From positions 2,852,001 through 2,916,000 of the forward strand of contig OX359190.1 in assembly GCA_947172415.1 (NCBI GenBank): a DNA stretch of 64,000 bases, in the 5' to 3' direction. The stretch's first letter is position 1, and each line of letters starts with the position of its first letter. Position numbers and translations under genes: made by a program. The notes beneath the pieces are model-generated. The model ran no database searches. It saw only the letters and a program-made list of their open reading frames with translations, and was not told the origin of the DNA. This document shows, in pieces, positions 7,429-64,000 of the stretch. The DNA comes from Chondrosia reniformis (lineage: Eukaryota > Porifera > Demospongiae > Chondrillida > Chondrillidae).

Positions 7429-8144
7429 AGTCTCTCCAGTGGGCCCTTGGTCACCATGGTTACCATCAAGACAAGAAGCACCACGAGCACCTTCCAGACC
7501 TCTTGTTCCCTGTACACCTCTCAGACCTTGTGCACCTGGTCTACCAGGAACACCTTCAACATCTCCATCAATTCCTCTCTCTCCTCTACCTCCAGTTGGA
7601 CCCTACAGGACAGCAAACACATTGAGGTTTCTAAAGATCACCTTCACATTTCAACACCCATAGCTACGTATGTATATATCCCTCTTCCATTGCTTCCAGC
7701 TGGACATCTGCTACCTATCCCATCCTAGAGTTGACATTAAATAATTATTTTCAAATAGATTAAAAAGTGCTTACATTTGACCTCTAAAGTGCTTATAATT
7801 ACCTTTAGTATATATACATTAGTGGAGTCCACAGTTAGTGTATATAGAGGTTTACTTACACATCACGACCTGGCAAATCATCAGCACCTCGGAAGCCTTG
7901 TGGACCCACTGGACCCATGTCACCTGGTTCTCCTTGGGCACCTTGGGGACCAGCACTTCCCACTGTTCTATCATCACCCATAGCCCTTCACCTCCAGCTA
8001 AACCAGGTCCACCCTCACTGCCCTGTACAGTAATAGGGAGAAGAGCACTCTAGTTGATGACAGTCTAATAATTATGCATCATAGAGTGTAAAAAAGATTA
8101 TTATTATTTTACAGACAATGCAACACTGTACAAGTCATCAAATA

Positions 8145-10040
8145 CAGTAGAACCTCGGTTATCCGAACCTCGATTAACCGGCTGCTCGGATTATCCGGCC
8201 TCGAAGGTCGCATACTCTTATTAACACCCATCGTTTGTTTAGTACACGTGCGAGTTCACAGCGAAGTGATGGCTAGTTCGAGTGGCTCTGCGAGGAAAGG
8301 GTAGCGCTTAGTTCTTCCCCTAGAGAGCAAGATAGCTATACTGGAGCGACTGAAGGCTGGAGCAACCCAAGCGCAGCTTGGGGAGGAGTACGGGATCGGA
8401 AGTTTGACCGTTGGCGAAATCAAAAAGAATGAGGCCAAAATAACATCGTTCGCGTCTAGGATGGACAGTATGGACATGAGCAAGAAAGGACGCAAGGTAA
8501 TGCGATTGGTTAATGATGACAAGCTCGATGAAGCTGTTTATCTTTGGTTCTCTCAAAAGCGGAGCCAAGACATGCCGGTAAGCGGACCCGTTCTGTGTGA
8601 GAAAGCTGCGTAGCTACACGAGCTGCTTCACGAGGGTAAATCTGAGCCTCCTTTCCAAGCTAGTAGGGGTTGGCTTTGGCGTTTTTGCCAACGTCATGGA
8701 ATACGGCAGCTCTCTTTGCAAGGAGAAAAGGTTTCTGCTGACACCACTAAGGTAGAGCCGTTCAAGAAGGAGCTACAGGAATTGTTAGAACGTGAGGCGC
8801 TGACTCTTGAGCAACTGTACAATTGTGATGAGACTGGGCTTTGCTACAGAATGCTTCCAAGCAAAACGCTTGCCTCTAGGTCAGAGAAAGAAGCTTCAGG
8901 CATGAAAAATCAGAAAGATCGTGTAACTCTGATGGCATGTTGTAACGCAACAGGGACGCACAGGTTACCTTTGATGTTCATTGGCAAAGCAAAAAGTCCA
9001 CGTTGCTTCAAAAATGTCAACAAGGAAGCATTGCCAGTCCACAACTGCTCTCAGAAAAATGCATGGGTAAACACAGAGATATTTATTGACTGGTTTCACA
9101 ACCAGTTCGTCCCTGCGGTGACAAAGCACTTGAAAGAGAAAGGCCTGACAGTTAAAGCATTGCTTGTGCTTGACAATGCACCTGCACATCCTAATGCAGC
9201 AAGCCTAGTTAGCCAGGATGGAAATATAAAAGCCATGTTTCTTCCGTCCAATACAACTTCTATTTTACAACCACTGGATCAAGGCATGCTGGAAGCCCTC
9301 AAGAGGAGGTATCGCAAGTCGCTGTTGCAGAAGTTGCTCCTAGAGGATCAAGAGGGAAGATCTATCATTCAATTTGTTAAGCAAATCAACATGAAGGATG
9401 TTGTCTACATGACAGCCTCAGCCTGGGATGATATTCCCCCACTGACGCTAGCAAGATCCTGGAACAAACTTCTACGTATTGATGACTCAAGTGAACCATC
9501 TTCATCACCAGAAGAAAGTGATCCAACTATTGCTGAGAAGCAATGTGAAGAACTTGCCCATCAACTTGATCCTAGTCTTCAAGATGAAGAGATCGCTAGC
9601 TGGATATATGAGGACTCAGATGACCAGGGCTATCAGTTATTAACGGATGATGACATTGTACAGCATGTGACACAGCAAGAGGAGGTTAATGATGAAAAAG
9701 ATGAAGATGAGAGTGAAGAAAGCCACAATATACCCAGCTGTGGAGACGTGAAGGACATGTTAGACAAATGCTCACTCTGGTACGAGAGGCAAGACGAAAG
9801 CACATCCACTTCATTGCTGTTGTTGAAACGTGTAAGAGACTTAGCAGCAACTAAGCGCTTCTTAAAGTTGAAGCAACTAAAACTGGACTCTTTTCTTGCT
9901 AAATCTCAGTAGTAATTATTGTGCATGTAATCTAATGAGTATTAAATTACATGTTCATATAGATGATTCACATATCCAGCCGTTTCACTTATCCGGCCAT
10001 AGCTTGGTCCCATTGACGCCGGATAACTGAGGTTCTACTG
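8145..10040 (+). mobile_element. Tigger/pogo-type DNA transposon, unit 1
   Basis: A 1896-bp element with terminal inverted repeats (CAGTAGAACCTCGGTTATCC at the left, its complement at the right) flanked by a TA target duplication (8143-8144 and 10041-10042). It encodes a pogo-type transposase. The same element fills the same site at 36262-38157, while the matching site in unit 3 (TA at 63746-63747) is empty. Insertion is in an intron of the collagen-like locus. Confidence 0.96.
8269..9912 (+). pseudogene. Tigger-type transposase with two in-frame stops
   Basis: About 547 codons counted from ATG GCT AGT. It has an N-terminal CENP-B-like helix-turn-helix region, then a DDE-superfamily catalytic core with three acidic residues in the contexts NCDETG, LVLDNAPAH and LQPLDQG, about 34 residues between the second and third. 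The frame is broken by TAG at 8302-8304, private to this copy, and TAG at 8611-8613, shared with the unit 2 copy. Downstream of the second stop the frame is open to TAG at 9910-9912. The enzyme would cut and paste the element at TA sites; this copy is most likely inactive. Confidence 0.92.
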
Positions 10041-12959
10041 TACTATCAACAATCAGCGATACATTCCACATATATACTTACAGCAGGTCCTTGTGGACCA
10101 GGGAGATCAACATTTCCTTCTATGCCCGCATCTCCAGCATCACCCAGTTCTCCAACATCTCTTGGCTCACCACACATTCCCCTAGCACCCTTAAGCCCTA
10201 TTAGACCACCATCACTACCATTAGGTCCTTGGGCTCCCACAGGTCCACCATCTCCAGACCCTCCTCTTGCACCTCCGGCTCCTTGGTGTCCCACACGTCC
10301 TGCTGCTCCATCATCTCCTGGACTTCCAGCAGGACCTTGACCTCCTGTCAGACCATACAGTCGTAGCAATAAAATTCACTTCATATAATGGACAGTCAGA
10401 CATTTTCATGATAGTACTTTGTATGTATGACAGCTTACTGGTGCACCAAGATCACATCTTATTCCCGTAGCACCAATGGACCCTCAGCTCCCTGCACCTA
10501 AAGACACAATATAGCCATGGTAACAGATTAAACACACTTGGACCTGTTTTAAGTTGCATAGTAAGTATACCTTCAGGTCTGCCATCTTTGCCACGTTGAC
10601 CCTGGTTCTCCAGTCTGACCTTTAGGACCAGTAATTCCCTGTGGACCAGCAAGACCAGCAGATTCATCAGCTCCTTGTTCACCAGCTGCACCAGTTGCAC
10701 CACAATCTCCACCTGTTCCAGGTAGACCCGTTGTCCCGAGTTACTAGGACCAACTGCAGGTCCTCTGGAGCCCAATACATATGTATACATACCCATGGTG
10801 TGATATAGGTATATAGTAATTAGATTATGCAAAACAAAAATGGAAATGTACGCTTTAAGGAATTAACGCTATCTATTATTTGATTGATAAGTTGTAAAGT
10901 TTTATAACACAATACATAGTTAGCGTGTTCTGCTACATATATAGTTGAATCACCACCAGTTCAAACGAATGCAAATTTAACATTTGCCATATTAATATAA
11001 TAGGAGACAATACTGCATGAGGTACTGTTGAGGACAATTGTAGACTCCACAGCCTAGAACTGGTCAATAAAACCAATTGTCCTGTGAAATATAGTTTATT
11101 CCCTCTAAAATGATGTCTGAGAATGATTATTTGTACTTTGATCAACACTACAGTTATTCATATAAATGCTGTACTTACTGCTGCACCTTGTGGACCAGAC
11201 GATATAGAGACTCCCTTTGCTCCCTTAATACCATCAGTACCAGAAGCTCCACTTGCACCATCACCTCCAGGAGCTCCAATGTCACCTCACTACCCCACCA
11301 GTGAATAACATACAATATCAGTAATAAATATAGTGATAGAAAACATACTCAAGATATATCTAGTCTACAGGATGCCACCTATATATGTAAGATCTTTACC
11401 AACTCTTTAACTGACCTTTTCTCCTTGATCACATTGTGCTCCAGTAGAACTTATACATCTCCCTTGGCACCTTTGGCACCTTGTGAACCAGTTGCACCAG
11501 TAAGACCACTCACACCCTACAGAGAATGAAATGCAGTCGACCAACATACAGTATGCTTCAATTGGGCCCACTCATGAGGAGAATGACTATCAGGTTCTTG
11601 AATGCATACTATAACTATAATTTACCTTACTGCTGCTCCAGCTGTTCCAGAGGGAGGATTAGTACAAGGATCCCTGTGTTTACCATGGTCACCATGGTTA
11701 CCATTGCTGCCTGGATCTCCAACAGCACATACATTACCAGGTTCTCCATCAAAACCTCTGTCTCCCCTTCCTCCCTATATATTTGTTGAATTAATCTCCA
11801 TGTGGACCAGCCTTTGACTCCATGGTTACCATGGTAACCTACCTAATTGACCCCTTTAGCTCCTTTTCCTAGTTACTCCTAGATTGACCCTTTTAGGTCC
11901 TAGATTGTCATGTTCCATTTAATCCAGGCAATCCTTGAATACCTTGAAGAAATGATCATTATCTTGAACAAATAGCACTTTTGGCTCTGATATGTAAATC
12001 CACTCACTCTGGTACCTTGTGACCCTATGGGTCCCATTTCTCCATTCTGACCATGCAAGCTTGCCTTGGTCTCCACTATGTCCAGGTCGGCCATCCACAC
12101 CATTTTCACCAGATACACCAGGATTATCAGGTGATCCATCACAGCTAGAAGTGGACCCAACACTGTTACTATATTTGAAATGATGTACAAGTAGAAGTAG
12201 GAGGTGTCATCCTTTACATTTGGTACCAGACACACTTGCACTCTAAAGGGAAGGAGAATGAATGAATAACATTATGATATGAATAATTCAATTTAAGTGC
12301 TCTCATAATGTTATTCATGGGGTTAGTACTTCCTCATTAAGATCCTATGGAATGTAGACCTCACAAAACTACTACCAGACCTTAACATGTGACCTCCACT
12401 GGCTAGAGAGACTAGTTGAGAATATACTATCTCTGAGTAATTAAGGTCCTTTAGCATAACATACAGACCAAAACAATACCTCACTAAAGCAACACTAATC
12501 CAAAGGAATATAATCATATAGGACACTTAACTAGCTAAATACTGGAAGAGCATCTACAAGTAAATTTCATACATCATATTATCAAATCAAATATAATATA
12601 TTGTACAATGTATTGTAGGTACACTTCCACAGGTGGAAAGTGGATTTCAAATGATCAGAAAATCCTCATTAATCAAGTCAATTCATGCATATAGAAAACG
12701 ATATACCTTTTATTGAAAAAGTCTTTACATCTTCTTTATACATCTTTATACACTCTTTACATAGATAGCTAGAACTAGTTCCTACGATACAGAAAACAGG
12801 ACAAGCTTTACCTTTCATAACAGCTGCATGGAGGAGAATTAAATCATTGAGGTGGTGCAGTAGATTAGATATGTGATCATACTTCAATGTGCCGCAGACA
12901 AGAAAGTACATTTGGCAGGGTCAATAAACTGGGAATCTCATTCCCTATCCTCATGTTAA

Positions 12960-13394: not shown

Positions 13395-16300
13395 ATGAAC
13401 GTGGAGAACGTAAGTTTACTTAATAGGTCTCTTGTTAGCAGTTTATAATGTTGTAGGAGCTAGTGTTAACTATTACTGGTCCGAATTCAGTGCCAAAATT
13501 AAAACTCGCTTAGTTTGAGATAATAGCCAAACTTTAAGAAAGTAATTAGCTACAGAGTAAGTGAACCTGTCGGGACTAACTGGCATACATTCAGAGACTA
13601 GTTTCTGTTCGATTGGGTTTGTTTAGAAAGGAATACTTGGCTGGCTCGTGTACTTCAATTACAGTTGTTGGGTCCGTGTAAAACCTAAACCAAACCAGTC
13701 AACTATAGAGCGAAGAGACACACGCGATTCATATCCTTTTAGGGGACAAGTTAGAAAGCGAGAAACTGATTCGTAATCTTTCCGTAACTGAATAACCATT
13801 CTGTTACTCTACTGGTGGCAATTAGCTTGTCACTGTAAACGTTATAAAGTTTAAAATATGAGCCATGCATGCACGTTAAGAATATTTAGACAAGAAGATT
13901 TACGGCACTTACAGGCCTCAAAGTGTTCTTGCAATAAGCTGCTACAGAACTTGCTCCTTCCATGTCATTCAGTTCCTCCAAACAGTGAATATTATATTTT
14001 CTTTCTTGTCTCTAATTAGGTATTTCAAAGTGACCTCTTGACAGCTGGAGGAGGTCACTTCCTTAAATCAACTGAAATACCGGAAGTGCCAATTGCAACT
14101 CGATTTGGGAAGGCAGTTGTAATTAACGAAACAGTATTTGTCTACGGGGGATATTGTGAAAATGCAACATCTCTACGGATCGTTCAGGTATACAATATAC
14201 TAACGAAGAAATGGTCAACACTACCTCCATCTCGGTATTCTCGCAGTGGAGCCACCATCATAAAAGATCAGTTAACTCTGATAGGAGGTAGAGACACTCT
14301 TTACACTACTACAAGCAAGCTAGTGACATGGACAGGTGAAGAATGGTTAGAGCTATATCCTCCAATGCACACTGCCCGATACAGTCCAGGTGTTCTTGCT
14401 ATTGGAGACTTAGTAATTGTGTCTGGAGGAAGAGGAGCAGATCACAGAAATGTAGACACAATTGAATTCCTGGATATTAACAATAGAAAGTGGATCCAGT
14501 CGAATCTGAAACTTCCTCTACCATTATCACTACACCACATGGCATTGTGTGGTGAATACATTTACATCTACTACTACACTGGATATTTTTGGAGAATGAA
14601 TAAGAAGAATTTTATGGCTTCACTTACCAATGATGAACATCACTGGGAAGAGCTCGAGAATGCATGGGACAGTTCGCTTTTACAATACAGCACCCTACCA
14701 GTCCTAGTAGGTCCATTTGGAATCTTCATTTTCGAGAAGGAGAAGTGGACACAAATTAGTAAAGAAACGTCTTATTTCAACACCTGTACGGCTTCCCTCA
14801 ACGGAACTACGTTTCTCACCATTGGAGGAAGTGGAGTAGGAGGACAATTACAGACAAGAGCTGTACAGTACGATATTGCAGTTGAGGTTAGTAACTTATT
14901 TAATTACAAAACATTACTTTAAAGTATTACAAGTCTTGTTAACATTCGTTGCGCGCTTCGTGTGCACTTTCTCCTTCAAATAGAAACATTAGAAGGTTTT
15001 ATTTCCTTCGTTAGAGTCACCTAACTTGTGCGCTCAGTGTACACGAAGCGCGTGTCAATGTTAACAAGACTTGTATTGCTTTAAAGTTCTCGTACGAGTG
15101 TGTCCTACGAACGCTCTCACGAGTTTAAGTGTTAACTTGTTTCCACTAACGGGGACTGTTAGAAGTCTTCTTGTATCATCCGCTCTTTGTATTTGAAGGA
15201 GAAAGTAGAGTGTGTACGTTTTAAAAAAGTGCCAAATTGTAAAACGGTTTCTTGCATATAATTTGCAGAATATTAATTTCTCGTCCTGTGTACGTTTGTG
15301 TGATTAGTTATAAGATGTTGCAGGAGCGCATAATGAATAGACACAATTAATAAAATGCTAACTAAGTAACAAGAATTTGAGTAAATTGCTACAAGTTTTA
15401 TTTGGCAGCCAAAAGTCGGCCATTTTACTAGTGAAAAATAGTCGTCAACGTCTAGATCTTAGGCAGATGATTACAAAGTTCTTAAATCAGGTTCTCCTTG
15501 TTGAAGTAAGTGTAAGAGAGATAAATAAAGTCAAATAGATTGTAATGTAATTAATGTACAAGTTATGTTAACATTTGTTGTGCGCTTCGCTTTAAAATAG
15601 AAACATTAGGAGGTTTTATTTCCTATTTTCAATGTTAACAATTAAGACTTCTATTGCTTTAGATTAATGTTCTCGTACGAGTGTTTCCTACGAGTGCTGA
15701 TACGTACTTGTTTAAGTGTTTCCACTAACGAAGACTGTTAAATCTTCCTTGCTCTTTACATTTGAAGTGAGAAAGTAAAGCGCTCAAAGTGTTATCCGCT
15801 AGAATTGTTAGCTTCATTGTCTGATTACTTAGAGTGTTTATTGTCTCGTGTACGGTACATCTCGTAAAAAAGTAAACTTTCGACGGGCGTAGAACTTTAT
15901 ACGGACGGCGTACGGGTGGGGTGTAGCACGGGCGTATCTCTATTTAGCTACGGATCATCTACGGATACAGCTACGGGCGTTTTTAAAAAATAATACGGAA
16001 GCCAAAGGCAAACAAACTTACATTAGCACTTCGGGCGCAAACTTATTAAACTATGTAATTCGGTGCCTTGCAAGGTGTGACATGCGAAATCAAGATCTTG
16101 TCGGCAAGCTCACTTAAACTTGTACACGCCACCTTTTGTAGTTACGTATCCTTCCGCTGCTAAGCATTTGACGATTTCTCTCTAGAACTTCCCTAAACGA
16201 CGATGACAGAGAATTCTCTGCTTCAAATACTCTAAATACGCCATTTTTGACTTGCGCGTAGTGAATATAAAAGTTACGTAGAACGAAAACCTTAAAAACA

Positions 16301-19300
16301 ACTATAAAACACCTTGATTCGATCGAAAATGTAAGTGCAACAAGTAGGTGTTAAATATTTTTTATTAACAAACAAGCCGTTCGACATATCCGTAATTTTT
16401 AAGTACGGGCGTAGATTGCAAAACGTGCGGGTCTTACTACGGCTTACCTACGGGCGTAGCGGAAGCGTCCTACGGAATTACGACGGTAGACGGCATGGGT
16501 GGCCTACGCCCGTAGAAAGTTTACTTTTTTACGAGATGTACCGTATGTAGACCTACGTACGTATACGTATATGTTTCATCTTGAATGTTTTCTCGTCCTG
16601 TGTACGTACGAGTGATTTTTTATAGATTGTTAGTTGAGCCACTTGCCAACAGCAGAAAGGGTAAATTGCTACCAATTAAAGTTTATGCTGACAGCCATTT
16701 AGCAGTGAATATGTTGTCATAATGCTAGTCAGATCATTCGACTGAGAGAGGTACCGTATTTTTAAATCTGGTGTTCCTTGTTCAAGTAGCATAAAGGTAT
16801 AGTAAAATAGTTTGTCAGTAACATTATCATCAAGAATGTAGCATTCTTATCATTTGAGAATGATATACTACATTGTTTGTGTTGTATGATTCATTTTTAT
16901 TGAGATTGTATTTAAAAACAAATTTAACGTTTCAACCCAGAGGTCTTCATCAGCATAATAATTTATGCACCACCAAAATTCTCAAAATATTTATACGTAC
17001 GTAGACGGCCATTTTTCTAACACACTGCTTGGAAGATGTACGTACATAGCAACTAAAAGCTATCTAGTATAAGGAAACTCTTTGAATCTATGTACGTACG
17101 TACGACAGTGTGTTAGAAAAATGGCAAACAACGTATAAATATTTTGAGAATTTTGGTGGTTCATAAATTATTCAACCTCTTTTGAGGTCCATAAACACAC
17201 AATGCAATTAGCCTCCTACCAACACCTACTCACATGTGAATTGATCTGGTTGATTTGAAGAGTTACTAATAATACTGTTTCTCTAGACACTCAAAAGTCA
17301 AAGATAAACCATTATAAGAGGAGTTAGTTGCTGAATCATCATTTTATACCTATGTATGGCCTGACATGTACGTATGTATACACTGTGATTGCTACATAGC
17401 ATGTGCATTGTGTAGGGAGTAACGTGTAAAGCTCTTAGAAAAGTAGACCACGTACCCACAACTAAGATACCATTGTGCTAGCACAGCCTTCAAAGGCCAT
17501 AATGATTTAATTTATGCAGGCTATCATATTTTTACTCATTTAGACACTACTGAAAAGTCCTTATGCGTACACTTGTGGGATTGACTGAGTTGTGATAAAT
17601 GGTTACCTATTGTTCCCCAACATTCTTGTGAAGCTACTGTTTATCATAATGTGTTATTTGTCACTTGTAATGTAGACGCAACATAATTAAGAAATTAAAT
17701 TATTTCCGATAATTCCTAAAACGTATGGTATTTGCAATTGATTTGCAAACATCTCATCTTTTTGAATATTGCATGATTGAACCAAATATTCCAAAGTCCT
17801 GATCAATCCATGTTTGATAATTAGTGACCTTTTAAGTGTTTGTTTATAAACACAACTTGCACTGTGCATAAAATTATGTCCACACTGTATAGGAATAATC
17901 TGATATACCATTTCTCTTACATGCCATATCTACTTTAGGGAACTAAACATAACGAGTGTTTTGGATTAGGATACAGAGTTTCTCTTTCTCTTCTTCTCCA
18001 CTGGGGTTTTGGAACAATTGACAATTTGAGTGTTACTTTATAACGTTTATTAAGAATAAGTTGTTCAACTTGGGTCAGTTCTGTACCTTATACTAGACTG
18101 CTTTTAGTTCTATATTTGGACATCTTCCAAGTAGTGCAGTTAACGTATTAAAAGATACATTAATACAGTGGGGATTAAAAGTAGTTAGCCATGTAACATG
18201 CGTTTTCACTATAGTACTCAATTACTCGCACAAGTAAAATGCCAAAGGTGCTAATTTCAACGAAATTTATTGTTTATTTGCGCCTCTAAAGTTGATTCTT
18301 AGGTTTGAAAGTCACAGCTGAGATGGCAGCATGTTTTCTTGGCCTTTGTTTCTCTTCTGCATAGTCTTTTTAGGAGAAAACCAATCCATTAAATCAACCA
18401 TAGTTGCACTATAGTGCTGAGTGATTTTCATTCCTAAATTGATCTTGGATAGGTTGCCAATGATATGTCTGACATTAATTCGATGTATGTTGCATCGATC
18501 TTTCGATTTCAGCCACTGTATAGAGATATCTTTTCTTGGCATTCTTACGCTTGCAATCTTAAACTTCACACCAAAATATATGCACTGTTATAATATAATC
18601 GTTGTGCCAAAAGTGTTAACAATTGTGAGTAAAGATACTCGAGGAGTAGCACACGTTTAAATGGTTAGCTATACCCCACTGTACATTGCTCAAACTGATT
18701 TGGTGTAGTGCAAAATACATACGTACCTCTAAATGTTGTAATGTTGTAATATCTGTGTAGCCTGTACATTAGACTAGTCAATCTCATTCTAAATTAAAGT
18801 GTACATCCTCTACTTCATGATTGAAGTAGCTCATGACTATACATAAACTCTACAAGTGAAGTAGCACTACACTCGTAGCTATGACAATAAACAAGATATA
18901 CTGTATATAGTATTAAGAAGTTTAGAAAAGTCAGTAGAATTCATGAAAGGAAGCCTTGAAAGTTAATTTAGATAATAGAATATATTTTAACATATGATTG
19001 TTTATTGTCAAACATTAAATACAAATTCCTGTACTCCTTTTAGTGTTAGGAGCAAATGAAATATTTCTGTTACCTACCAGAGAATATGTTAAAATGAACC
19101 TATAGACTTTAGAACTGTAAATATTGAGCCAAGACAATTGTTGGAACTATGTAAATATGAAATATACAATTATAATAATTGACAATGTGTAATTTACTTC
19201 TATTTCTGATATATGATTGGTTTTGTAGTGGTATGAAGAAGCCATTAAAGGACATGGCTCAGTTGAGGTTAACATCAGTTACTGTTTCCTGACAGGAGGC

Positions 19301-22300
19301 CCTCGAGTTGGTAAAACCTCGCTGAAGCACTACCTGCTCTACAACACAGCAAGAGAAGACAAAACTAGCACTGGTATGCTGGAAGCTCCTGAAGTGGCCA
19401 CCATTGTTGAGGATGGAAACACAAACAGAACAACAGATCGGTTGGAGGAATACCAGAGAGAAGAAAACCTGAGAATGGTAGGCCAGGGGAAGGGAAGCCA
19501 GGGAGAGGAAGGCCAGGGAGAGGAGAGCCAAGGAGAGGAAGGCCAGGAGAAGGGGAGCCAGGGAGAGGAAGGCCAGGGAAAGGGGAGCCATGGAGAGGAA
19601 GGCCAGGGAAAGGGGAGCCAGGGAGAGGAAGGCCAGGGGAAGGGGAGCCAGGGAGAGGAAGAGAAGTATGATTTCATTAAATGTTCTGCAGTTGGTTCTT
19701 CCTGGAATGTTTTAACAGATGAAAAGCTAGGGCAGCTTATTTCAAAGGTTAAAATGGAGAAAAGGGAGGTCTTTCCAGGCAGCACTCTAGAAGCCCCACC
19801 TGCCTCTCCTCCACAGGCTTCATCTAATGATGCCACTTTACCTGGTGATATCACCAAGACAGCGGAGGTAGCCAGTGAGACGACCAAGCTGCCAACCGCT
19901 GTCTCCAATTCACCTTCTCCTCCTCCTAGCCATAGAGATGATACCACTGAGGCTTTAGCGGTACAAGACCCACTGGAGCTGCTGGAGCAAGCCAGGGACA
20001 GCTTCTTGCTGAAGCACAATCTCTCCACTGAAGCAGAATTTGATGAAGAGAAGTGTACGTTCGTTTACCTCCTGGACACAGGAGGCCAGCCCTCCTTTCA
20101 GAATGTCGTTCCACTCCTACTGGACTTTCCCTGCAACTTTCTGCACGTCTTTAATGCTTCAGAGAGGTTGACAGATCCGTATGTCAATGTTTTCTGTCGA
20201 GATGGAGCCACTGAAGAGAAGAGAGCCAACAGCCGTTCAACCTGGGAATTGATGAAGGAGTCCATTACAGCTGCCTACACAATGTCAATGAAGAGCAAGC
20301 GACAGTTGAAAGCATTTGACATGCCTAATGAGCCCCAACTTCGCATTTTCCTTGTTGGCACTCACCTTTCCCATCTTCCTGAAGATCCTGAAGCTAAGAG
20401 AGCTCTGCTGGACCACAACAAGAAGGTTCTAGAGGAAATGGACAACAAGCCTTATGATGGCAACAGGGTTTTCCCCCCAAAAGAGGTTGTCTACAAAGGT
20501 GCTAGTAGCTACTTTCTATTAGACAGTCAGCTACAGGGAGACAGCAAGATGAAGGATCACACTTACAAAGTAGTTAATGCCCTTCGCTCTCTGCTTGCAG
20601 ATTCCAAGAATCGGTTAGCATTGAAAGTCCCCAAAGTTTGGTTCTGCCTGCAACTTATCACATCTAGCGTAGAAAGGAAGATGTGGAAGCTCACAGAACT
20701 GAAAGAGTTTTGCCTCCGATGCCAATTCATCCAACCAGTAGATGCTGACGGACAGCTCCTTGCACTGCTGAACCTGTTTCATTGCCTTGGGTTCTATTTG
20801 TACTTTGACCTGAGTGAGTACAAAGAGCAGTGGATCTGTACAGATGCAACCTTTCTGTACAAGGAAATGTCCAAAGTGCTATCAGTCCAGTATGGCCCAA
20901 GTGAATGTCTAAGCACAGAGCTACGTATCTTCATGGAAAAAGGAGTAATTCCTGAAGCTGTTTCGGAGGCCTTGTTTCGACAGCTAGATATCAATGCCGA
21001 CATCCCAACAAGATGGCTCCTGAAGGTCTTGGTAAAAATTGGTATTGCAGCCAAAGTGAGAGAAAAGGAGACACGCTACTTCATTCCAGCAGCCCTTCCT
21101 GAGAGGCAGATCTACCTACCTGAAGCGTCTGTGGCCACTTTGGCATACACTTTCTCATTCCATTCCGTCCAAGATGAGAGGTATACCTGCATACCGACTG
21201 GTCTATTCCACAGACTGGCTGTGGACATTGCAAGTGGCAGACAAGCACTCAAGGAGGAGGAAGTGAGCCCAGTCCAGCTGAGAGGAAAGCAGTGGAGGTA
21301 CTATCACAAGCAATCAGGCTGTACACAGTTCATTTTCACACAGGAAAATGCCCACATTGCTCTTTCCCAAAAGGAAGACCTCATTCAACTCCAACTGTTG
21401 GTTCCTCAGCACTTTCCCAAGCTAAGTCTTTCCTTGACTGAGCTCTGCAGGCACATCAGAAAGGAGATGTACAAGCGCATTTGTTACGTGAGTGAGGTAG
21501 TCTTTGGTGCTGAGTTTCTTGAAGAGAAAGCCACTTTAGAGGACGGGGTCATTTGCAGTCACCAGAATTGTGAGGGCTCCAGTTTGCATCTTTTGCGATT
21601 TGAAGGTGACAACCAAAGAACAGGTCTGTGTACCAGACTGAACAAGATGACCGGACTAACTCCAAGAGAGTCTGTTTGGGTTGCTAAGGAACAGGACAGT
21701 GACACCAATGTAAGTTTTCATAATATTATTATTCAACAGATAAGTTTTTTCACGAATGTAGAACAATTTTTGACTGTACGTATATTTTGCATTCTGATCT
21801 TCTGCTACTGTCTCTATTATTGTTATTCTTTCAACACAAGTAATTATTAATTTTTATATCTGCTTCTGAATATATAGTTGAGCGTGGCTGGTAATGTGGA
21901 ATTTGATGGAGACCAGTTCCTTCTCTATAAAGACCAGTCTACCTGTACTGGAGGACCCGGAGTTGTTGGACAGCCAACACCATCTGACAACTCAGTAGAG
22001 TGTGATGGTGAGTGCGTATTCACTGTAACACTAAATAACGCACATTAAATTTTGCTTTTATGTACATTTATGTACATAATTTTGCACATAATATTGTTGA
22101 ATGACTCAGTGTTCATATTATTTTGGTACAGAGAGCTGGAAAGAAAAGCTCAAAGGCAATCACTGGGTTTACCTGTTGGGAAACCTCACTGTCGACAAGA
22201 TATGTGACCACCTCTACCAGGGAGTGGATGGAAAGTCACTGGTTACTGAAGAGGTGTATGATGAGATTGAGAATGCAAAGAGCAAAAAGGAAGCAAACAA

Positions 22301-22445
22301 AATCTTCTTAAAGCACTTACTGAATGCTGGTACGGAGGAGAGTTTGAAGCTGTTTTGTACAGTTCTTCGACAAACATCTAATGACTATCAGATTCATGAA
22401 GAGATTCTTGAGAAACTGAAAGCTGATTTCAAATTTGGAATGTAG
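13395..22445 (+). CDS. Kelch-Roc-COR-CARD protein (receptor-type GTPase), copy 1
   Basis: Five exons in phase: 13395-13409, 14020-14886, 19229-21709, 21878-22007 and 22132-22445, about 1268 residues. Exon 2 (residues about 6-294) is a Kelch beta-propeller with repeated Gly-Gly turns (VYGGYC, LIGGRD, VSGGRG, TIGGSG). Exon 3 carries a Roc-type GTPase: P-loop GGPRVGKTS near residue 317, DTGGQ near 577, VGTH near 670, then a COR-like region. Between P-loop and DTGGQ lies a long insert with a GQGKGSQGEE repeat. The last exon (about 104 residues) resembles a CARD of the death-domain fold. Roc-COR proteins are nucleotide-driven switches; CARDs recruit partners through like-like contacts. No signal peptide or membrane segment is seen, so a cytoplasmic protein is likely. 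It is head-to-head with the collagen-like locus and convergent with STAT. The tail could also be another death-fold subtype. Confidence 0.85.
14927..15075. repeat. Short inverted-repeat element in receptor intron
   Basis: Ends ACAAGTCTTGTTAACATT and its complement, about 35 bases paired, around an internal segment of about 75 bases. A related, more decayed block lies at 15559-15652. Both are kept in unit 2 near 42568 and 43193. No coding capacity; likely a MITE remnant. Confidence 0.6.
15853..16543. mobile_element. 691-bp TA-flanked MITE, unit 1 only
   Basis: Terminal inverted repeats CGGTACATCTCGTAAAAAAG (about 40 bases in all, few mismatches) with TA on both sides (15851-15852, 16544-16545). 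Internal sequence is rich in ACGGGCGTA-like motifs and has no long open frame. Unit 2 has the uninterrupted target GTGTATGTAGACC near 43487, so the insertion postdates the split of units 1 and 2. Confidence 0.9.
16930..17175. repeat. Foldback whose loop is inverted relative to unit 2
   Basis: Arms about 16962-17028 and 17105-17172 are inverted copies (TTTTTCTAACACACTG against CAGTGTGTTAGAAAAA and beyond). The roughly 80-base loop contains AACTAAAAGCTATCTAGTAT. In unit 2 (43928-44130) the same loop is present in reverse orientation. Confidence 0.88.
18166..18681. mobile_element. 516-bp TA-flanked element in receptor intron, unit 1
   Basis: Ends CAGTGGGG and CCCCACTG with TA outside both, and weaker inverted similarity further in (GTTAGCCATG against TGGTTAGCTA). 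Minus-strand frames inside (18312-18569) look protein-like, and unit 2 has a similar frame, so it may be the remnant of a transposase. Shared with unit 2 at 45233-45742, hence older than the duplication. Confidence 0.75.
19485..19662 (+). repeat. Coding 30-bp minisatellite in the receptor insert
   Basis: About six copies of a 30-base unit reading GQGKGSQGEE in the receptor frame. Unit 2 has only a single remnant (EGQGEEE), which explains why its exon 3 is 772 codons against 827 here. The insert is low-complexity and hydrophilic, between P-loop and DTGGQ. Confidence 0.92.
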
Positions 22446-24846
22446 CTTTCAAATTTATCCGTCTCTCTTGTCTCTATATTTGTAACTTGCTCAATTTTTA
22501 ACTTATTTAGTCAATCAGTTTAATTTCTATTTGTTAATTGTTAATTTATATAAAATCCTTGGACCATGGTATATTATACACACTAAATACTTCTCCCTTC
22601 ATCAGTTCATGTTTAGGGACAAAAATACGTTTTGTAAAATATATGGTGTCGACCTGTTCCAGTTGAGAGAGATGTCTCAGTGTAGATTAGAACATAAAAT
22701 GGAAGTATACATGACTACTGGTCTGTAGTCAATCATGGATTGTATAGAGGAAGCTTGTTACAGCTAGTGCAGTGAAAATCAAACCAGTTGACCCGAACAA
22801 CCTCAGAGAGGTAGACTATCTAGCTACAAGTAGCAGTGTGTAGCAAGTCCAATGAAGTATGAAACATGCTTGTAATGTCTCTGAATACAGATGCTACTGT
22901 TTCTGTTTTGTACAGTCTGCGGCTACCTCACTGTGTGTGTGTGTGTGTGTGTGTGTGCGATGGCACTGGGTCCCTTCTGGACGATACCAGCACTGCCACA
23001 TGTAATACATTCTTACATAATACATGATAAAATTTGCCAGAAAGGTATTTTGAACAACTGGTAGAGAAGGTAAATAAGCTGTGAATCTTTACAACAAGAG
23101 AGAAAAATGTATATACGTATAAGGCAATGCGGAGAAGAGTATAACCCTGTTGATATAAGTATATAATAAAGTTGATTTGTCAAATTTTGAGTAATTTTTC
23201 TGTTCCAAAATTATTTAATTACATTGTAGCCTTTTAATAGAGTAGAAACTGGTTGCCTAGTAGTATACGTACACAAATTGCAACTATCACTCTAGTATAG
23301 CATGTTCATACACTTAGCATGCCCAGTGTTTTATTTTCATATTCCATGTAGTTTGCTATGACTGATGGTCTTTGATTTAATGGAGACCAGTTCCTTCTCT
23401 ATAGAGACCAGTCTACCTAGCCTGTACTGGCATAGAAACAGCTGAGCAGGTGGGGAGAGGGGGAGCTTAAGCCCCAAAGCCCCATAACCATCTATACCCT
23501 TGACTGGAGGACCTGAAGTTGTTACACCATCTGACAACTCGGGAGAGTGTGACGGTGAGTACATATTCACTGTAACACAGCTGTTGTGTGACGTTTTCAG
23601 TTTATTGCATAATAATTTAATAATTAATGCAATAATAGTATCAAAGAAATTGCCAACCAACTCTTGCAAGGAGTGGATGGAACACAGCTAATTACAGATG
23701 CCATTTGTCGGATAATCAATACGAAATCTTTTTGGAACACTTGAGAAGTAAAATACTTCCAAGTGTTTATATTTTCTGTAAGAGACTATGTATAAACGTA
23801 CATGAAGAAGTGACTAACAGACTGGAAGGGGAGACCAGAATATGGGTAGGTCCATGGCCATACACTTTAGCAACCAACACCAACTGACAACTTGGGAGAG
23901 TGTGATGGTGATTTGAGAACTTGTATTATTGGAATACTGTCAGAGTTGCTTGTTTACAAAGTGACACATTTTGTAACATTTCATCAGTTTAGTTTGGTCT
24001 GGCCATCCTGTTTTTTCTATATAAGTTCATTTTTAAATGTCTTTATTTATGGCTATTAAATAGCCTAACATGAGGCAGAAACCATTCCTGCAGGAAATAC
24101 ACTTGTAAAACCATGCATGCAGCCTCATATATATAGATGCTTTGATGGTTATGACAATAAGCATTTTACACTAATCATTAGTCATACAAATATAAAATGG
24201 ATTATTTAGATGCAGCATACAAACAATAATGTTTAAATACATACTCTAGTAACTTCCTGTGGATTATTACATTTGTGTGTGAGTGTGTGTTTATAAAAGG
24301 AGATACACTAAGCACACATATTAGATAAGAATGGAGAGAAGGGCATGTTGAGATGCTAAGAATGTTGTCTAGGAAAGAAACAAAAATTGAAGTGGTAGTA
24401 ACAAATAGCGATTTTTGGTGGCTCGATGATTAGTGGTACAGTGATCGCCCATCAAAAGTAGAATTAAACAGTCCCTGTGCGCCTGGAGGTTGGGGAAATT
24501 CTTCATGTTCATTCTATTTGGAGGAAACATGGAAAAAATGGTAGGTATGTAAAACACTAATAAAACATGATTCTAGCAATATCATGGCAAGTGGCATTCT
24601 AATAGGATTAAATGTAACAAATACCTCAGATAAGTATGCCTTAAAACAGTGAAGATACAATTTAGAGTATTTTAACTGAATTTATTTACTAGAAATCACA
24701 TTTGTCTAATAATTTAGCATTCACTGATCTAAATACTTTCTACCTATGAAGAATTTTATATGAGTATTCTTTTTATACATACCATACTACGTACAGGATA
24801 AAAAGGAGATAGAAAACTGTAAGTTCAGAATTATAGAAAATTAAAC
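22446..24846. other. Intergenic region between convergent receptor and STAT-A
   Basis: Contains a GT microsatellite (about 22931-22957), decayed copies of receptor exons 4 and 5 (separate entry) and a weak tRNA-like stretch on the plus strand near 24411-24490 (GGCTCGATGATTAGTGGT followed by a poor B-box). Nothing else recognised. Confidence 0.6.
23369..23915 (+). pseudogene. Decayed duplicates of receptor exons 4 and 5
   Basis: Bases 23369-23553 repeat exon 4 (GATGGAGACCAGTTCCTTCT-type start, GAGAGTGTGACGGTGAGT end) with a roughly 75-base insertion. Bases 23650-23760 match the start of the CARD exon (GGAGTGGATGGAA, then stops). Bases 23866-23915 repeat the exon 4 end once more. No usable frame. 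The same relics lie in unit 2 at about 50502-51053, so the tail duplications are older than the tandem unit. Confidence 0.82.
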
Positions 24847-27800: not shown

Positions 27801-30800
27801 GTAATAGAGTCATGTGACTAACAATAGGGTCGTGTGACCAACACTTGGATCATGTGACTAATAATAGGGTCGTGTGACCAACACTTGGATCACGTGACTA
27901 ATAATAGGGTCATGTGACCAATACTTGGATCATGTGACTAATAATAGGGTCATGTGACTGATAATTGAATCATGTGGCTTACTTCTTGTATAAGCAATTG
28001 ATATGCCCCCTATGCCAGAGTCACTGAATCTCATTAAAAATGTACCTGGAACACACTGTGCAAGCTTTGTGTGAGCTTCATTCTTATCAATAAAACCTTC
28101 AATCAGACTGCAGAGGAAGAGTAGATGGATGGATGGATGGATGGATGGATGGATGGATGGATGGATGGATGGATGGAAGGACGGATGGATGGATGCATAG
28201 ATGGATGAATAATTGATAAATTGAAAATTTAACAAAGTAGAGAAATGGATAAATGAACAGATAGATGGACAGAGACATGGATGGTTAAATCACCCTGCTT
28301 CCCATTCCTTTTTGAAACAAGTCACAACTAATTCCCTTGCCTGATAAAACCACGACCAGAAGGTGAACATGACACCTTTCAAAGTGTCCTTTCCCACAGC
28401 CTGCCTGCCAACCTTGTAATTGGAAGGGTCCTCATCATGCCCTGAAGAGACATGGAGCCATTTTTTCATTGGACAGGTATACAGATATATAAAGATGGCC
28501 TTCCTTCTCCCTTACCTAATGAAGGTATTAGTTTGTGTGCCAAATAGTTTAGATTGCCTGGTGTCAATCCTCTGCCAGTGGTACTTGCAAAAAATGCCTT
28601 CAAAGCTTCGGCTAACTTTGGCCAATCCACTAAATCTGGTGTTTGAAATGGATTACGATTCTATAAGGAGGCAGATATACAGAATATCTTGTGTTTGACG
28701 GATAACAGTTTATGAGTTATTAGATAGAACAGTTTATGAATACAGTATTCTTTCAGGGGGTCCTGTGTTTGTTATTGATAAATTTCATGCAATAAATTAG
28801 AATATAATTATCGTTAAATAGTAGCTGATCTCGAATAGCGGCTGAATATCTCTAATCAACACGCTGGTCAAGGTGCAAACCGATCGCGATGTCTGACCAG
28901 TTTCCGTTGCAGTAGCGATGTCAAAGCGAAAAGTCCTACGATGTCTCCTTTAAGTTGTATCGCAGCATTGATGGCTGTGGAATGTGCTGCGAATATCTAT
29001 ACCAACACCAATTTTAGCTAATATTATATAGAAGCCAGGCTCGAATAGAAGCCCTGCTCGAATTGAACCTGGGTCAAAAACGACTGGAATGAAATAGAAG
29101 CCGGGGCTTCCATTCGGACAAATACGGTATACTATTTTTATAATGTCCACTTACAGGTTCTGCAAATGAGTTGTCCCAGAAGATTGTGAATTCAGCTTGC
29201 GGTTGCTGGTTGCCATGGACAATGACCACTACAGGAAGTGACATCACTTTGATGTTTACATTAATCTCTCCACCAATATTCACTTGAGTTTGAAAGAGCA
29301 ATGTAAACTTTTCTTCCATTACTGACTAAATAGAGATATTATGAAGATATGTGATTACGTAAATATAGGGAGATGTGCGAGTGTAAAGGTAGGACCTTTG
29401 ATTACCTCATTTCCTCTTCTTTCTGGTGATCTCTTGATTTTCTTCAATTGCTACATCAAAGACATGGGAAAAGCGTGCATACTGGTTAAATGCAGCAAAG
29501 CAAAATTCATTTTACAAAGTGGAAAATCACTGCAATATTACAGAACATGATTTTTCTATGCACATCAAAGTCTTTGCACATGAATTGTACAATCAACTGG
29601 TATAATTTAATTGCCATCCATTTTGTATTCCTGTGACACGACTGTGGGTTCACACCATAAATTTGATAAAATATTGATCGAGTCGATGATGGAGAGTGCT
29701 CTCATGATGTACATGTGATGTGCATGTGATGTGCATGTGATGTGCATGTGATGTGCTCACCATGCTGTTAAATGTGCAGGCAAGGACACCAGTAGAAGGC
29801 TGCAATTCCATTGTCTTCTTATAGTTTAGTAATTCTCCACTGTTCATACTGGCATCACACCTATGTACACACGTACTGTTAGATAACGTCATTTTTGTGA
29901 CCCCATGCAAGAATAAATTACTTGAAAATTTATTGATAAACAGAGAATAAAGTTATATGAGTACAGTCTTTGACTACAAGATAGGGCAGCTGCATTGTGA
30001 ATCTAATGACTACTTTACAATGCCAACTATGGGATCTGGGTTTTCCTAAAAGAATCATGGAAACCAAGGATCCTTCATGAAAATAAAAGATTGTCAAGTG
30101 TAGGGAACTAATCTAAAAAGTGTACTTTTTAATTTTTTGCTATGTTATTGTACAGATACGTATATATAGTGTACATATGTATGTGTATATATATACTGTA
30201 TATATATGTATAGATGGGATAGCCATCCATCCATCCAGCTACCACTTCACCCATCCATCCAGCTACCACTTCACCCATCCATTGAGCTACCACTACACCC
30301 ATCCATCCAGCTACCACTTCACCCATCCATCCAGCTACCACTACACCCATCCATCCAGCTACCACTTCACCCATCCATCCAGCTACCACTACACCCATCC
30401 ATTGAGCTACCACTTCACCCATCCATCCAGCTACCACTTCACCCATCCATCCAGCTACCACTTCACCCATCCATCCAGCTACCACTTCACCCATCCATCC
30501 AGCTACCATTTCACCCATCCATCCAGCTACCACTTCACCCATCCATCCAGCTACCACTTCACCCATCCATCCAGCTACCACTTCACACATCCATCCAGCT
30601 ACCACTTCACCCATCCATCCAGCTACCACTTCCAACTGGGTGGATGACATATTAAGGAGGGGCTAACTGATTAAATGATTTCTGATTATTTCTAGACTCT
30701 CAATTAATTATTGTAAGTAATATGTAGGCATTTCCTTGATTATAGTTAATATATACAGGTATCATGTCAATTAATTAAGTACGTAATTAATTGGACTTGG

Positions 30801-35547: not shown

Positions 35548-36261
35548 AGTCTCTCCAGTGGGCCCTTGGTCACCATGGTTACCATCAAGACAAGAAGCAC
35601 CACGAGCACCTTCCAGACCTCTTGTTCCCTGTACACCTCTCGGGCCTTGTGCACCTGGTCTACCAGGAACACCTTCAACATCTCCATCAATTCCTCTCTC
35701 TCCCCTACCTAGAGTTGGACCCTACAGGACAGCAAACACATTGAGGTTTCTAAAGGTCACCATCACATTTCAACAACTATAGCTACGTATGTATATATCT
35801 CTTCCATTGCTTCCAGCTGGACATCTGCTACCTATCCCATCCTAGAGTTGACATTAAATAATTATTTTCAAATAGATTAAAATGTGTTTACATTTGACCT
35901 CTAAAGTGCTTATAATTACCTTTAGTATATATACATTAGTGGAGTCCACAGTTAGTGTATATAGAGGTTTACTTACACATCACGACCTGGCAAACCATCA
36001 GCACCATGGAAGCCTTGTGGTCCCACTGCACCCATGTCAACTGGTTCTCCTTGGGCACCTTGGGGACCAGCAATTCCCACTGTTCCATCATCACCCATAG
36101 CCCTTCACCTCCAGCTAAACCAGGTCCACCCTCACTGTCCTGTACAGTAACAGGGAGAAGAGCACTCTAGTTGATGACAGTCTAATAATTATGCATCATA
36201 GAGTGTAAAAAAGATTATTATTATTTTACAGACAATGCAACACTGTACAAGTCATCAAATA

Positions 36262-38157
36262 CAGTAGAACCTCGGTTATCCGAACCCCGATTATCCGGCT
36301 GCTCGGATTATCCGGCCTCGAAGGTCGCATACTCTTATTAACGCCCATCGTTTGTTTAGTACACGTGCGAGTTCACAGCGAAGTGATGGCTAGTTCGAGT
36401 GGCTCTGCGAGGAAAAGGAAGCGCTTAGTTCTTCCCCTAGAGAGCAAGATAGCTACACTGGAGCGACTGAAGGCTGGAGCAACCCAAGCGCAGCTTGCGG
36501 AGGAGTACGGGATCGGAAGTTCGACCGTTGGCGAAATCAAAAAGAATGAGGCCAAAATAACATCGTTCACGTCTAGGATGGACAGTATGGACATGAGCAA
36601 GAAAGGACGCAAGGTAATGCGATTGGTTAATGATGACAAGCTCGATGAAGCTGTTTATCTTTGGTTCTCTCAAAAGCGGAGCCAAGACATGCCGGTAAGC
36701 GGACCCGTTCTGTGTGAGAAAGCTGCGTAGCTACACGAGCTGCTTCACGAGGGTAAATCTGAGCCTCCTTTCCAAGCTAGTAGGGGTTGGCTTTGGCGTT
36801 TTTGCCAACGTCATGGAATACGGCAGCTCTCTTTGCAAGGAGAAAAGGCTTCTGCTGACACCACTAAGGTAGAGCCGTTCAAGAAGGAGCTACAGGAATT
36901 GTTAGAACGTGAGGCGCTGACTCTTGAGCAACTGTACAATTGTGATGAGACTGGGCTTTGCTACAGAATGCTTCCAAGCAAAACGCTTGCCTCTAGGTCA
37001 GAGAAAGAAGCTTCAGGCATGAAAAATCAGAAAGATCGTGTAACCCTGATGGCATGTTGTAACGCAACAGGGACACACAGGTTACCTTTGATGTTCATTG
37101 GCAAAGCAAAAAGTCCACGTTGCTTCAAAAATGTCAACAAGGAAGCATTGCCAGTCCACTACTGCTCTCAGAAAAATGCATGGGTAAACACAGAGATATT
37201 TATTGACTGGTTTCACAACCAGTTCGTCCCTGCGGTGACAAAGCACTTGAAAGAGAAAGGCCTGACAGTTAAAGCATTGCTTGTGCTTGACAATGCACCT
37301 GCGCATCCTAATGCAGCAAGCCTAGTTAGCCAGGATGGAAATATAAAAGCCATGTTTCTTCCGTCCAATACAACTTCTATTTTACAACCACTGGATCAAG
37401 GCATGCTGGAAGCCCTCAAGAGGAGGTATCGCAAGTCGCTGTTGCAGAAGTTGCTCCTAGAGGATCAAGAGGGAAGATCTATCATTCAATTTGTTAAGCA
37501 AATCAACATGAAGGATGTTGTCTACATGACAGCCTCAGCCTGGGATGATATTCCCCCACTGACGCTAGCAAGATCCTGGAACAAACTTCTACGTATTGAT
37601 GACTCAAGTGAACCATCTTCATCACCAGAAGAAAGTGATCCAACTATTGCTGAGAAGCAATGTGAAGAACTTGCCCATCAACTTGATCCTAGTCTTCAAG
37701 ATGAAGAGATCACTAGCTGGATATATGAGGACTCAGATGACCAGGGCTATCAGTTATTCACGGATGATGACATTGTACAGCATGTGACACAGCAAGAGGA
37801 GGTTAATGATGAAAAAGATGAAGATGAGAGTGAAGAAAGCCACAATATACCCAGCTGTGGAGACGTGAAGGACATGTTAGACAAATGCTCACTCTGGTAC
37901 GAGAGGCAAGACGAAAGCACATCCACTTCATTGCTGTTGTTGAAACGTGTAAGAGACTTAGCAGCAACTAAGCGCTTCTTAAAGTTGAAGCAACTAAAAC
38001 TGGACTCTTTTCTTGCTAAATCTCAGTAGTAATTATTGTGCATGTAATCTAATGAGTATTAAATTACATATTCATATAGATGATTCACATATCCGGCCGT
38101 TTCACTTATCCGGCCATAGCTTGGTCCCATTGAGGCCGGATAACTGAGGTTCTACTG
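36262..38157 (+). mobile_element. Tigger/pogo-type DNA transposon, unit 2
   Basis: Same length (1896 bp), ends and TA target (36260-36261, 38158-38159) as the unit 1 copy and at the matching site, so it was copied along with the unit and did not insert twice. It differs by scattered substitutions only. Confidence 0.96.
36386..38029 (+). pseudogene. Tigger-type transposase with one in-frame TAG
   Basis: From ATG at 36386 the frame runs 547 codons to TAG at 38027-38029, broken only by TAG at 36728-36730 (codon 115), shared with the unit 1 copy. The N-terminal region has a basic start (SARKRKR) and a helix-turn-helix (AQLAEEYGIGSSTV). The catalytic acids sit in NCDETG, LVLDNAPAH and LQPLDQG. 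The C-terminus is acidic. This copy has fewer breaks than unit 1, but the shared stop would truncate the protein before the catalytic core. Confidence 0.93.
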
Positions 38158-63016: not shown

Positions 63017-64000
63017 AGTCTCTCCAGTGGGCCCTTGGTCACCATGGAGACCATCAAGACAAGAAGCACCACGAGCACCTTCCAGACCTCTTGTTCCCTG
63101 TACACCTCTCAGGCCTTGTGCACCTGGTCTACCAGGAACACCTTCAACACCAGGATCTCCAACATCTCCATCAATTCCTCTCTCTCCCCTACCTCCAGTT
63201 GGACCCTACAGGACAGCAAACACATTGAGGTTTCTAAAGATCACCATCACATTTCAACAACTATAGCTACGTATGTATATATCTCTCTTCCATTGCTTCC
63301 AGCTGGACATCTGCTACCTACCCCATAATAGAGTTGACATTAAATAATTATTTTCAAATAGATTAAAAAGTGTTTACATTTGACCTCTAAAGTGCTTATA
63401 ATTACCTTTAGTATATATACATTAGTGGAGTCCACAGTTAGTGTATATAGAGGTTTACTTACACATCATGACCTGGCAAACCATCAGCACCATGGAAGCC
63501 TTGTGGACCCACTGGACCCATGTCACCTGGTTCTCCTTGGGCACCTTGGGGACCAGCACTTCCCACTGTTCCATCATCACCCATAGCCCTTCACCTCCAG
63601 CTAAACCAGGTCCACCCTCACTGTCCTGTACAGTAACAGGGAGAAGAGCACTCTAGCTGATGACAGTCTAATAATTATGCATCATAGAGTGTAAAAAAGA
63701 ATATCAATATTTTACAGAGTGTGCAACACTGTACAAGTCATCAAATACTATCAACAATCAGCAATACATTCCACACATATAATTACAGCAGGTCCTTGTG
63801 GACCAGGGAGACCAACATTTCCTTCTATGCCCACATCTCCAGCATCACCCAGTTCTCCAACATCTCCTGGCTCACCACACATTCCCCTAGCACCCTTAAG
63901 CCCTATTAGACCACCATCACTACCATTAGGTCCTTGGGCTCCAGTAGGTCCACCATCTCCAGACCCTCCTCTTGCACCTCCGGCTCCTTGGTGTCCCTCA
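63017..64000 (-). pseudogene. Collagen-like Gly-X-Y locus, unit 3 (cut by window edge)
   Basis: Exons 63017-63205, 63465-63625 and 63787 onward. The first is 189 bases, 15 longer than in units 1 and 2, and its extra codons (GDPGV region) keep a perfect Gly-X-Y register. The third reads GEPGDV where units 1 and 2 have GEPRDV. The 161-base exon has the same frameshift as the other units (after GGEGL), and one donor is GTAAT instead of GTAAG. It is the least decayed of the three over this stretch. The empty Tigger target lies between the second and third exons at 63746-63747. Confidence 0.78.

Follow-up and report, generated by a model that had tools for sequence, protein, structure and literature searches.

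To our knowledge, it is still poorly understood how a sponge distinguishes between its many symbionts, other microbes and fellow sponges. A 64,000-nt stretch of the Chondrosia reniformis genome (chromosome 2, 2852001-2916000; hereafter the window) holds a Kelch exon and a paralogue of it that differ mainly in codons that change the amino acid. What kind of protein does this exon encode, and what keeps changing it? The assembly (GCA_947172415.1; chromosome 2 of 10.29 Mb, genome of 117.38 Mb) is described in the genome paper as PacBio-based with a consensus quality of 69.8 (PMC12181767). Our analysis makes it likely that this exon encodes the sensor part of a receptor with three parts, apparently intracellular, whose family is large and arranged mostly in tandem; the family would form a germline repertoire of non-self sensors.

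Results

The Kelch exon belongs to a predicted five-exon gene

Five exons, predicted from the genome sequence by splice signals, open frames and conservation, join in frame to encode 1,268 residues with one terminal stop. They are listed below in window coordinates, followed by their counterparts in the second repeat unit.

13395-13409, plus strand: exon 1 (MNVEN), phase 0, ATG AAC GTG GAG AAC and then gtaagt, joining in frame
14020-14886, plus strand: exon 2, Kelch propeller domain of 289 aa, with Pfam Kelch_1, PF24681 and KLHL12 profile matches
19229-21709, plus strand: exon 3, Roc/COR-like GTPase, with GGPRVGKT, DTGGQP and THLSH motifs and COR-A and Roc matches
21878-22007, plus strand: exon 4, conserved linker, AG/GT bounded and in frame
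22132-22445, plus strand: exon 5, with the stop codon and a CARD-like domain that scores 20.1 bits for Pfam CARD (cut-off 23.9)
41658-42527, plus strand: unit 2 Kelch exon, paralogue of exon 2
46277-48592, plus strand: unit 2 Roc/COR-like exon, counterpart of exon 3
48762-48891, plus strand: unit 2 linker exon, counterpart of exon 4
49026-49339, plus strand: unit 2 CARD-like exon, counterpart of exon 5

Exon 2 scores over the Pfam cut-offs for Kelch_1 (53.5 bits against 20.1) and PF24681 (56.2 against 50), and the Kelch family profile matches KLHL12 in the PDB at 9.4e-18. The 20-base string made up of exon 1 and its donor occurs exactly in 9 of 20 fetched upstream regions and as a variant in another 9, two of which (L019, L026) are without this ATG; it was not found in the remaining 2. 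Since a first exon of five residues leaves no room for a signal peptide, the predicted protein is probably cytosolic, and the label "receptor-type" given to the gene by an earlier sequence-only reading is therefore to be taken as an intracellular receptor.

In exon 3, we take GGPRVGKT to be the P-loop and DTGGQP and THLSH to be GTPase motifs, so that the encoded domain may act as a GTPase. COR-A and Roc were matched in all six members scanned (best 4.9e-5 and 0.0033), with scores under the Pfam cut-offs in the members whose scores were shown; the domain order and the P-loop fit ROCO proteins. A profile search of the PDB with this exon gave no match at E up to 0.01. The open frame of exon 3 continues past the gtaagt donor into a TM-like tail, which is not the same in unit 2; we therefore dismissed this tail as read-through into the intron. 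The unit 1 exon also holds a GQGEE-type repeat stretch (about 19480-19670, plus strand) that is missing from unit 2, and the two exons differ by 55 codons in length.

The exon 4 linker is 86% identical in the two distant paralogues compared. Exon 5 was matched by Pfam CARD at E up to 1 in six of nine paralogues scanned (best 3.9e-4), and SCAPER_N matches it as often (6/9 members, best 4.8e-5). A profile search of the PDB returned no CARD, its six matches at E 0.3-0.5 being non-CARD and at chance level. As the exon scores 20.1 bits against a cut-off of 23.9, the label CARD-like is provisional, and CARD-type signalling by this part is correspondingly tentative. Genome-wide, exon 5 has 150 matches, some of them partial or with stops. 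A second pair of linker and CARD-like exons, its pieces in different frames, lies downstream of the gene (23340-23890) and is similar to the version carried by the same two distant paralogues.

Neither BTB nor BACK was found in scans of exons 2, 3 and 5 and of the ORF over exon 4, exon 1 being five residues long. No NACHT was matched at E up to 0.1 in the exon 3 copies of units 1 and 2, nor was it among the families listed for six exon-3 members at E up to 0.5, one of these members giving a weak nSTAND3 match (0.17). The scanned exons contained no LRR, the sensor being Kelch, and no kinase match.

The exon is one of about a hundred in a chromosomal array

A genome search with the Kelch exon gave at least 136 matches. 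At least 97 are full-length (at least 280 of 289 residues, identity of at least 60%), with 93 on chromosome 2, 3 on C5 and 1 on C13; 90 of the chromosome 2 exons lie between 0.77 and 4.0 Mb at a median spacing of 16 kb, and the other 3 near 8.2 Mb. Eighty were fetched, 17 of the 97 staying outside the set. AG..GT flanks were present in 79 of the 80 and the frame was open in 78; the two with one stop each (L024 and L044) were left out of the selection tests, which thus used 78 sequences.

The window itself spans two large units in tandem, with 83-96% identity between them in the longer aligned blocks. A third unit begins before the window ends, and its collagen-like part alone lies inside (61-64 kb). 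The third-unit Kelch copy that the sequence-only reading proposed to align is not in the window: the next one found by the genome search starts at chr2:2920059, about 4 kb beyond it.

Several other elements accompany the units. Collagen-like (Gly-X-Y) stretches occur on the minus strand of each (7474-11286, 35593-40249 and 63062-63996). DDE_1 transposase ORFs, presumably Tigger/pogo-like by name, lie on the plus strand at 8614-9912 (the domain-scanned copy) and 36731-38029; they agree at 429 of 433 translated positions, stop counted, and being near-identical were carried along by duplication. A STAT-like gene in unit 1 (27930-29325, minus strand) shows STAT DNA-binding, linker and SH2 matches. 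Six STAT linker exons were found in the genome (chr2:2827240, 2880523, 2947637, 3012425, 3474626 and 3544212), and as all lie within the span of the receptor array, this suggests that a STAT-type transcription factor was co-duplicated with some receptor units. In intron 2, a stretch of about 200 bases (16959-17172) matches its unit 2 counterpart (43930-44130) on the opposite strand; because the sequence itself looks palindromic, the cause may be an inverted-repeat element and not an inversion. Positions 30117-30647 are a block of short tandem repeats in which both strands carry long open frames; its counterpart in unit 2, near 57.1-57.5 kb, is shorter.

Most of a more distant set of Kelch exons (34-40% identity) resides on C7 and C14, and C2, C4, C11 and C12 have one member each. 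The set includes further arrays at C7:6.02-6.12 Mb and C14:0.60-1.08 Mb. Four weak CARD-like matches lie among the C7 exons, so the pairing of Kelch with CARD may be wider than the chromosome 2 array.

Replacement changes exceed silent changes in the Kelch exon

Both Kelch exons of the window are open and AG..GT-bounded. The sequence-only reading had counted, by eye, some 38 replacement codons against about three silent ones and had taken this for diversifying selection. Our codon alignment gives 43 replacement and 3 silent-only codons with 5 gained or lost; 18 of the 46 changed codons differ at two or three bases, as had been said of many, and the clusters of change coincide with ours after subtraction of five residues (exon 1, MNVEN). 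By the NG86 method, the pair has Nd 60.6 and Sd 5.4, with dN 0.099, dS 0.027 and a ratio of 3.7. The GTPase exon was said to carry few differences, which does not hold (60 replacement and 39 silent codons of 763); its ratio is nevertheless lower, as proposed (0.46, with dN 0.036 and dS 0.077).

The excess extends to the family. The global omega of the 78 Kelch sequences is 1.23. For single sites we used our own FUBAR-style implementation, in which an MG94-type codon model is combined with a rate grid for silent and replacement change. When no replacement rate was allowed to exceed its silent rate, the fit worsened by 2dlnL 523, against 2.9 and 10.0 in two null simulations, both on the same tree and neither with recombination. 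At P>0.9, 58 of 289 sites were positively selected in the data and 0 and 4 in the simulations, for which reason we rejected a bias of our own test as their source; purifying selection reached the same level at 57 of 289 sites. Subsets of 27 and 39 sequences gave 2dlnL 212 and 218.

Recombination among copies could mimic an omega above 1. The signal persists, however, when each of six segments has its own tree (2dlnL 343, with 54 sites passing P>0.95 and 45 passing P>0.99; omega between 0.70, in segment 1-49, and 1.96) and in tree-free, independent pairs. Specifically, pN exceeds pS in 23 of 24 independent close pairs. Their overall pN/pS is 1.70; it rises to 4.67 when the 45 selected codons, which were picked from these same data, are taken alone, and drops to 0.87 for the remaining 244. 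Over all 3,003 Kelch pairs the median dN/dS is 0.76 and 20% exceed 1, the ratio of means falling with divergence from 2.11 at dS <0.05 to 0.62 at dS 0.3-0.5. We attribute this fading of the excess in distant pairs to a probable saturation of a fixed set of sites.

Both exons could be compared in 11 genes, drawn from 20 ten-kb loci after 8 that gave no Roc start by pattern and the broken L023 had been dropped; L015, L017, L020 and L022 have no Roc start by pattern yet have Roc matches, and L016 is cut at its end. Among the 55 pairs, dN exceeds dS in 50 for Kelch (means 0.102 and 0.075) and in 1 for Roc (0.050 and 0.131). Omega is 1.67 for the Kelch exon and 0.53 for the Roc/COR-like exon, with 2dlnL of 72 and 9.3, respectively. 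In the Roc exon 27 of 768 sites stand at P>0.9, but its 2dlnL of 9.3 does not exceed that of one null simulation. Thus, the per-exon comparison bears out the positive selection proposed for the Kelch exon, and the adjacent GTPase-like exon is constrained.

Non-coding flanks gave a further yardstick, with an upper limit of 0.15 on flank divergence that set aside 19 of the 55 pairs for intron 2 and 9 of the 55 for the upstream flank. Kelch dN is larger than the divergence of the first 600 bases of intron 2 in all 36 alignable pairs (means 0.100 and 0.047), and larger than that of the 1-kb upstream flank in 35 of 46 (means 0.099 and 0.076). Replacement change hence appears to outrun adjacent non-coding change, clearly for intron 2 and less clearly upstream.

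Relaxed constraint yields an omega near 1. As an account of the diversity, it would make these exons decaying duplicates, and it can point to the stop in 2 of 80 Kelch exons and to the in-frame stops in 23 of 57 long Roc matches; 21 of these 23 run past the end of the exon, as the query itself did. The pN/pS of 4.67 at particular sites, the 57 sites under purifying selection and the Roc omega of 0.53 all speak against decay. For the 78 open copies taken together this account is refuted, and we give it next to no credence, although single members may be decaying.

Selected sites map mostly to the loops of one predicted propeller face

The loop limits were set mechanically, with GG as the start of a BC loop and W as the start of strand D. 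We placed these anchors ourselves and assigned six blades from the sequence, blades 4 and 5 being without a clean GG. Anchors and selection test together give the following loops.

14086-14106, plus strand: DA loop before blade 1, residues 23-29, with selected sites 25, 26, 28 and 29
14152-14181, plus strand: BC loop of blade 1, residues 45-54, after GG43-44; site 45 shows 13 amino acids in 57 ungapped sequences
14239-14244, plus strand: DA loop 1-2, residues 74-75
14290-14316, plus strand: BC loop of blade 2, residues 91-99, containing codon 95
14380-14385, plus strand: DA loop 2-3, residues 121-122
14431-14454, plus strand: BC loop of blade 3, residues 138-145
14518-14532, plus strand: DA loop 3-4, residues 167-171
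14572-14580, plus strand: BC loop of blade 4, residues 185-187
14650-14670, plus strand: DA loop 4-5, residues 211-217, containing codon 216
14713-14718, plus strand: short BC loop of blade 5, residues 232-233
14776-14781, plus strand: DA loop 5-6, residues 253-254
14830-14853, plus strand: BC loop of blade 6, residues 271-278

The BC/DA loops account for 87 of the 289 positions and take in 37 of the 45 sites that reach P>0.99 (Fisher p 2.6e-15); the site set from a single tree gives 29 of 35. Four of the eight outliers (122, 171, 185 and 214) lie one residue outside the mechanical limits. As judged from these anchors, the selected sites are thus mostly on one propeller face, where the sequence-only reading had also expected them. 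Single positions, namely 45, 122, 138, 144 and 171, show as many as 13 different amino acids when up to 78 sequences are compared. In KLHL20, the surface that meets the substrate is shaped by the BC and DA loops (PMC6720452), and in KEAP1 these loops carry the Nrf2-binding residues (PMC10146909), as those papers describe them; the sponge loops may frame a comparable pocket.

Three C7 Kelch exons, 35-37% identical to the window exon, differ mutually at 30 positions in window-exon numbering. Seventeen of the 30 are in the same mechanical BC/DA sets, including 29, 45, 49, 73-75, 91, 96, 99, 121 and 144. Their dN/dS values are 1.29, 0.61 and 1.54, from too few sequences for a test. The C7 array is suggestive of a partial replicate of the loop variation.

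Third bases are restrained and copies recombine

In the selected codons, base diversity is 0.464 at the first position, 0.463 at the second and 0.247 at the third, and the third base varies less than the first and second in 35 of the 45 (p 1.3e-9). Codon 95 reads NNC in 75 of 75 sequences and encodes 10 amino acids; codon 216 reads NNG in 76 of 77 and encodes 11. All three bases vary in codons 28, 45 and 49. The restraint of the third base argues against a mutator blind to codon phase and fits repeated selection on the amino acid.

Recombination among the Kelch copies is evident from our own PHI test, in which none of 500 permutations reached the observed value. Two members (L021 and L027) differ at 11 positions in the Roc exon and at 61 in the Kelch exon, which implies separate histories of sensor and switch exons. 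Association among selected sites is weak and hardly distance-dependent (excess mutual information 0.03-0.09). Together with the separate exon histories, this would fit exchange between copies followed by selection.

One could then suppose that targeted hypermutation, or another codon-blind mutational process, or gene conversion alone created the diversity, since recombination is real and the variation is concentrated in short clusters. Gene conversion by itself, however, cannot raise dN over dS, and a codon-blind mutator is at odds with the quiet third bases and the invariant C of codon 95. This explanation is largely refuted, and we regard it as very improbable.

Discussion

The present study describes an array of Kelch exons in which replacement outruns silent change on the BC/DA face and the companion GTPase-like exon is under constraint. 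Considering the predicted parts together, the N-terminal Kelch propeller would read the ligand, the Roc/COR-like GTPase would be the switch and the C-terminal CARD-like domain would signal. New copies would arise by tandem duplication, at the median spacing of 16 kb, and exchange between them would shuffle the Kelch exons. Positive selection would keep changing some 45-54 residues, mostly on the BC/DA face with which KEAP1 and KLHL20 grip peptides, and the strands would be conserved. Ligands of such receptors would be non-self, either microbial products or allogeneic molecules, and on this footing we infer an immune receptor role for the family.

By the domains detected, the chromosome 2 family is not an NLR family, although it appears NLR-like in design. 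ROCO proteins, of the DAPK1 and LRRK2 type, resemble exon 3 in the Roc-like P-loop followed by a COR-A-like match, but exon 3 scores under the Pfam cut-offs and no kinase was matched in the scanned exons. Tachylectin-2 is a propeller lectin that is not known to carry a GTPase. Its coral form is likewise described as a putative invertebrate immune protein, highly diverse in its amino acids and under positive selection, but was studied as 244 alleles in Oculina (PMC2880987). Animal NLRs, which are reported as expanded in sponges (126 NACHT+LRR genes in Dysidea avara), also form a large receptor family with a sensor, an NTPase and in part a CARD (PMC12909245). Unlike them, the scanned Chondrosia exons contained neither NACHT nor LRR; the word Kelch is absent from the main text of that paper. 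BTB-Kelch proteins such as KEAP1 and KLHL20 share Kelch BC/DA loops as the substrate face (PMC6720452, PMC10146909). BTB and BACK were, however, not found here, where GTPase-like and CARD-like parts take their place, and the loops described as conserved within each KLHL protein (PMC10146909) are hypervariable in the sponge array.

The nearest analogue in design is, by comparison of architecture, the fungal HNWD family (het-d, het-e and het-r of Podospora), described as having a propeller sensor with hypervariable selected codons, a nucleotide-binding switch, an effector and homogenising recombination (PMC12222747). Four codon positions per WD40 repeat are reported there to be under diversifying selection on a predicted interaction surface (PMC12222747). 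The differences are also plain. HNWD proteins have WD40 rather than Kelch, NACHT rather than Roc/COR-like, and a HET effector at the N-terminus, so that the order of domains is reversed relative to the sponge gene; furthermore, their variation lies among repeats and alleles, and that of the sponge among about 100 paralogues.

This likeness lends itself to another reading, namely that the array serves allorecognition rather than microbe sensing and separates self from non-self sponge tissue, as HNWD does in hyphae. The common design, in which a nucleotide-binding switch and an effector are joined to a propeller sensor that has a small number of selected codons in each repeat, would suit that role (PMC12222747). 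On the other hand, about 100 paralogues, with 93 of 97 on one chromosome, suggest many targets and not one compatibility locus. We therefore think allorecognition unlikely as the main function, if a serious contender.

Division of labour after duplication would be expected to end in purifying selection. This matters for a further alternative, in which the proteins are substrate adaptors for many internal or symbiont-derived proteins and have no defence role: close pairs still show a pN/pS of 4.67 at the selected sites, sites that were chosen on the same data. In its favour, Kelch loops are described as substrate-specific across KLHL proteins (PMC10146909), and the abstract of the Chondrosia reniformis genome paper gives 53 bacterial bins, typical of a high-microbial-abundance sponge (PMC12181767). 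We consider such adaptors improbable, more so than allorecognition.

A repertoire of non-self sensors thus remains our preferred reading. In two other sponges, unnamed Kelch-motif genes are reported to go down after exposure to microbial patterns (PMC6208332), which by analogy is a weak hint of a defence role. Among the matches listed, titles and abstract openings of the open-licence PMC literature contained no Kelch-Roc-CARD family and no hypervariable Kelch array. With somewhat more confidence than doubt, we propose that the family represents a new class of intracellular recognition receptors in animals (Kelch, Roc/COR-like, CARD-like), with a germline repertoire of about 100 genes and a rim of about 45 nearly independently varying residues shuffled between copies, in which peptide recognition would have arisen separately from the LRR, Ig and WD40 systems. 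If so, the sensor-switch-effector design would have been reached with a Kelch propeller, in parallel to the fungal WD40 and animal LRR receptors. For the sponge, the array provides a concrete candidate for recognition: about 100 genes in one chromosomal array, whose likely specificity residues are defined.
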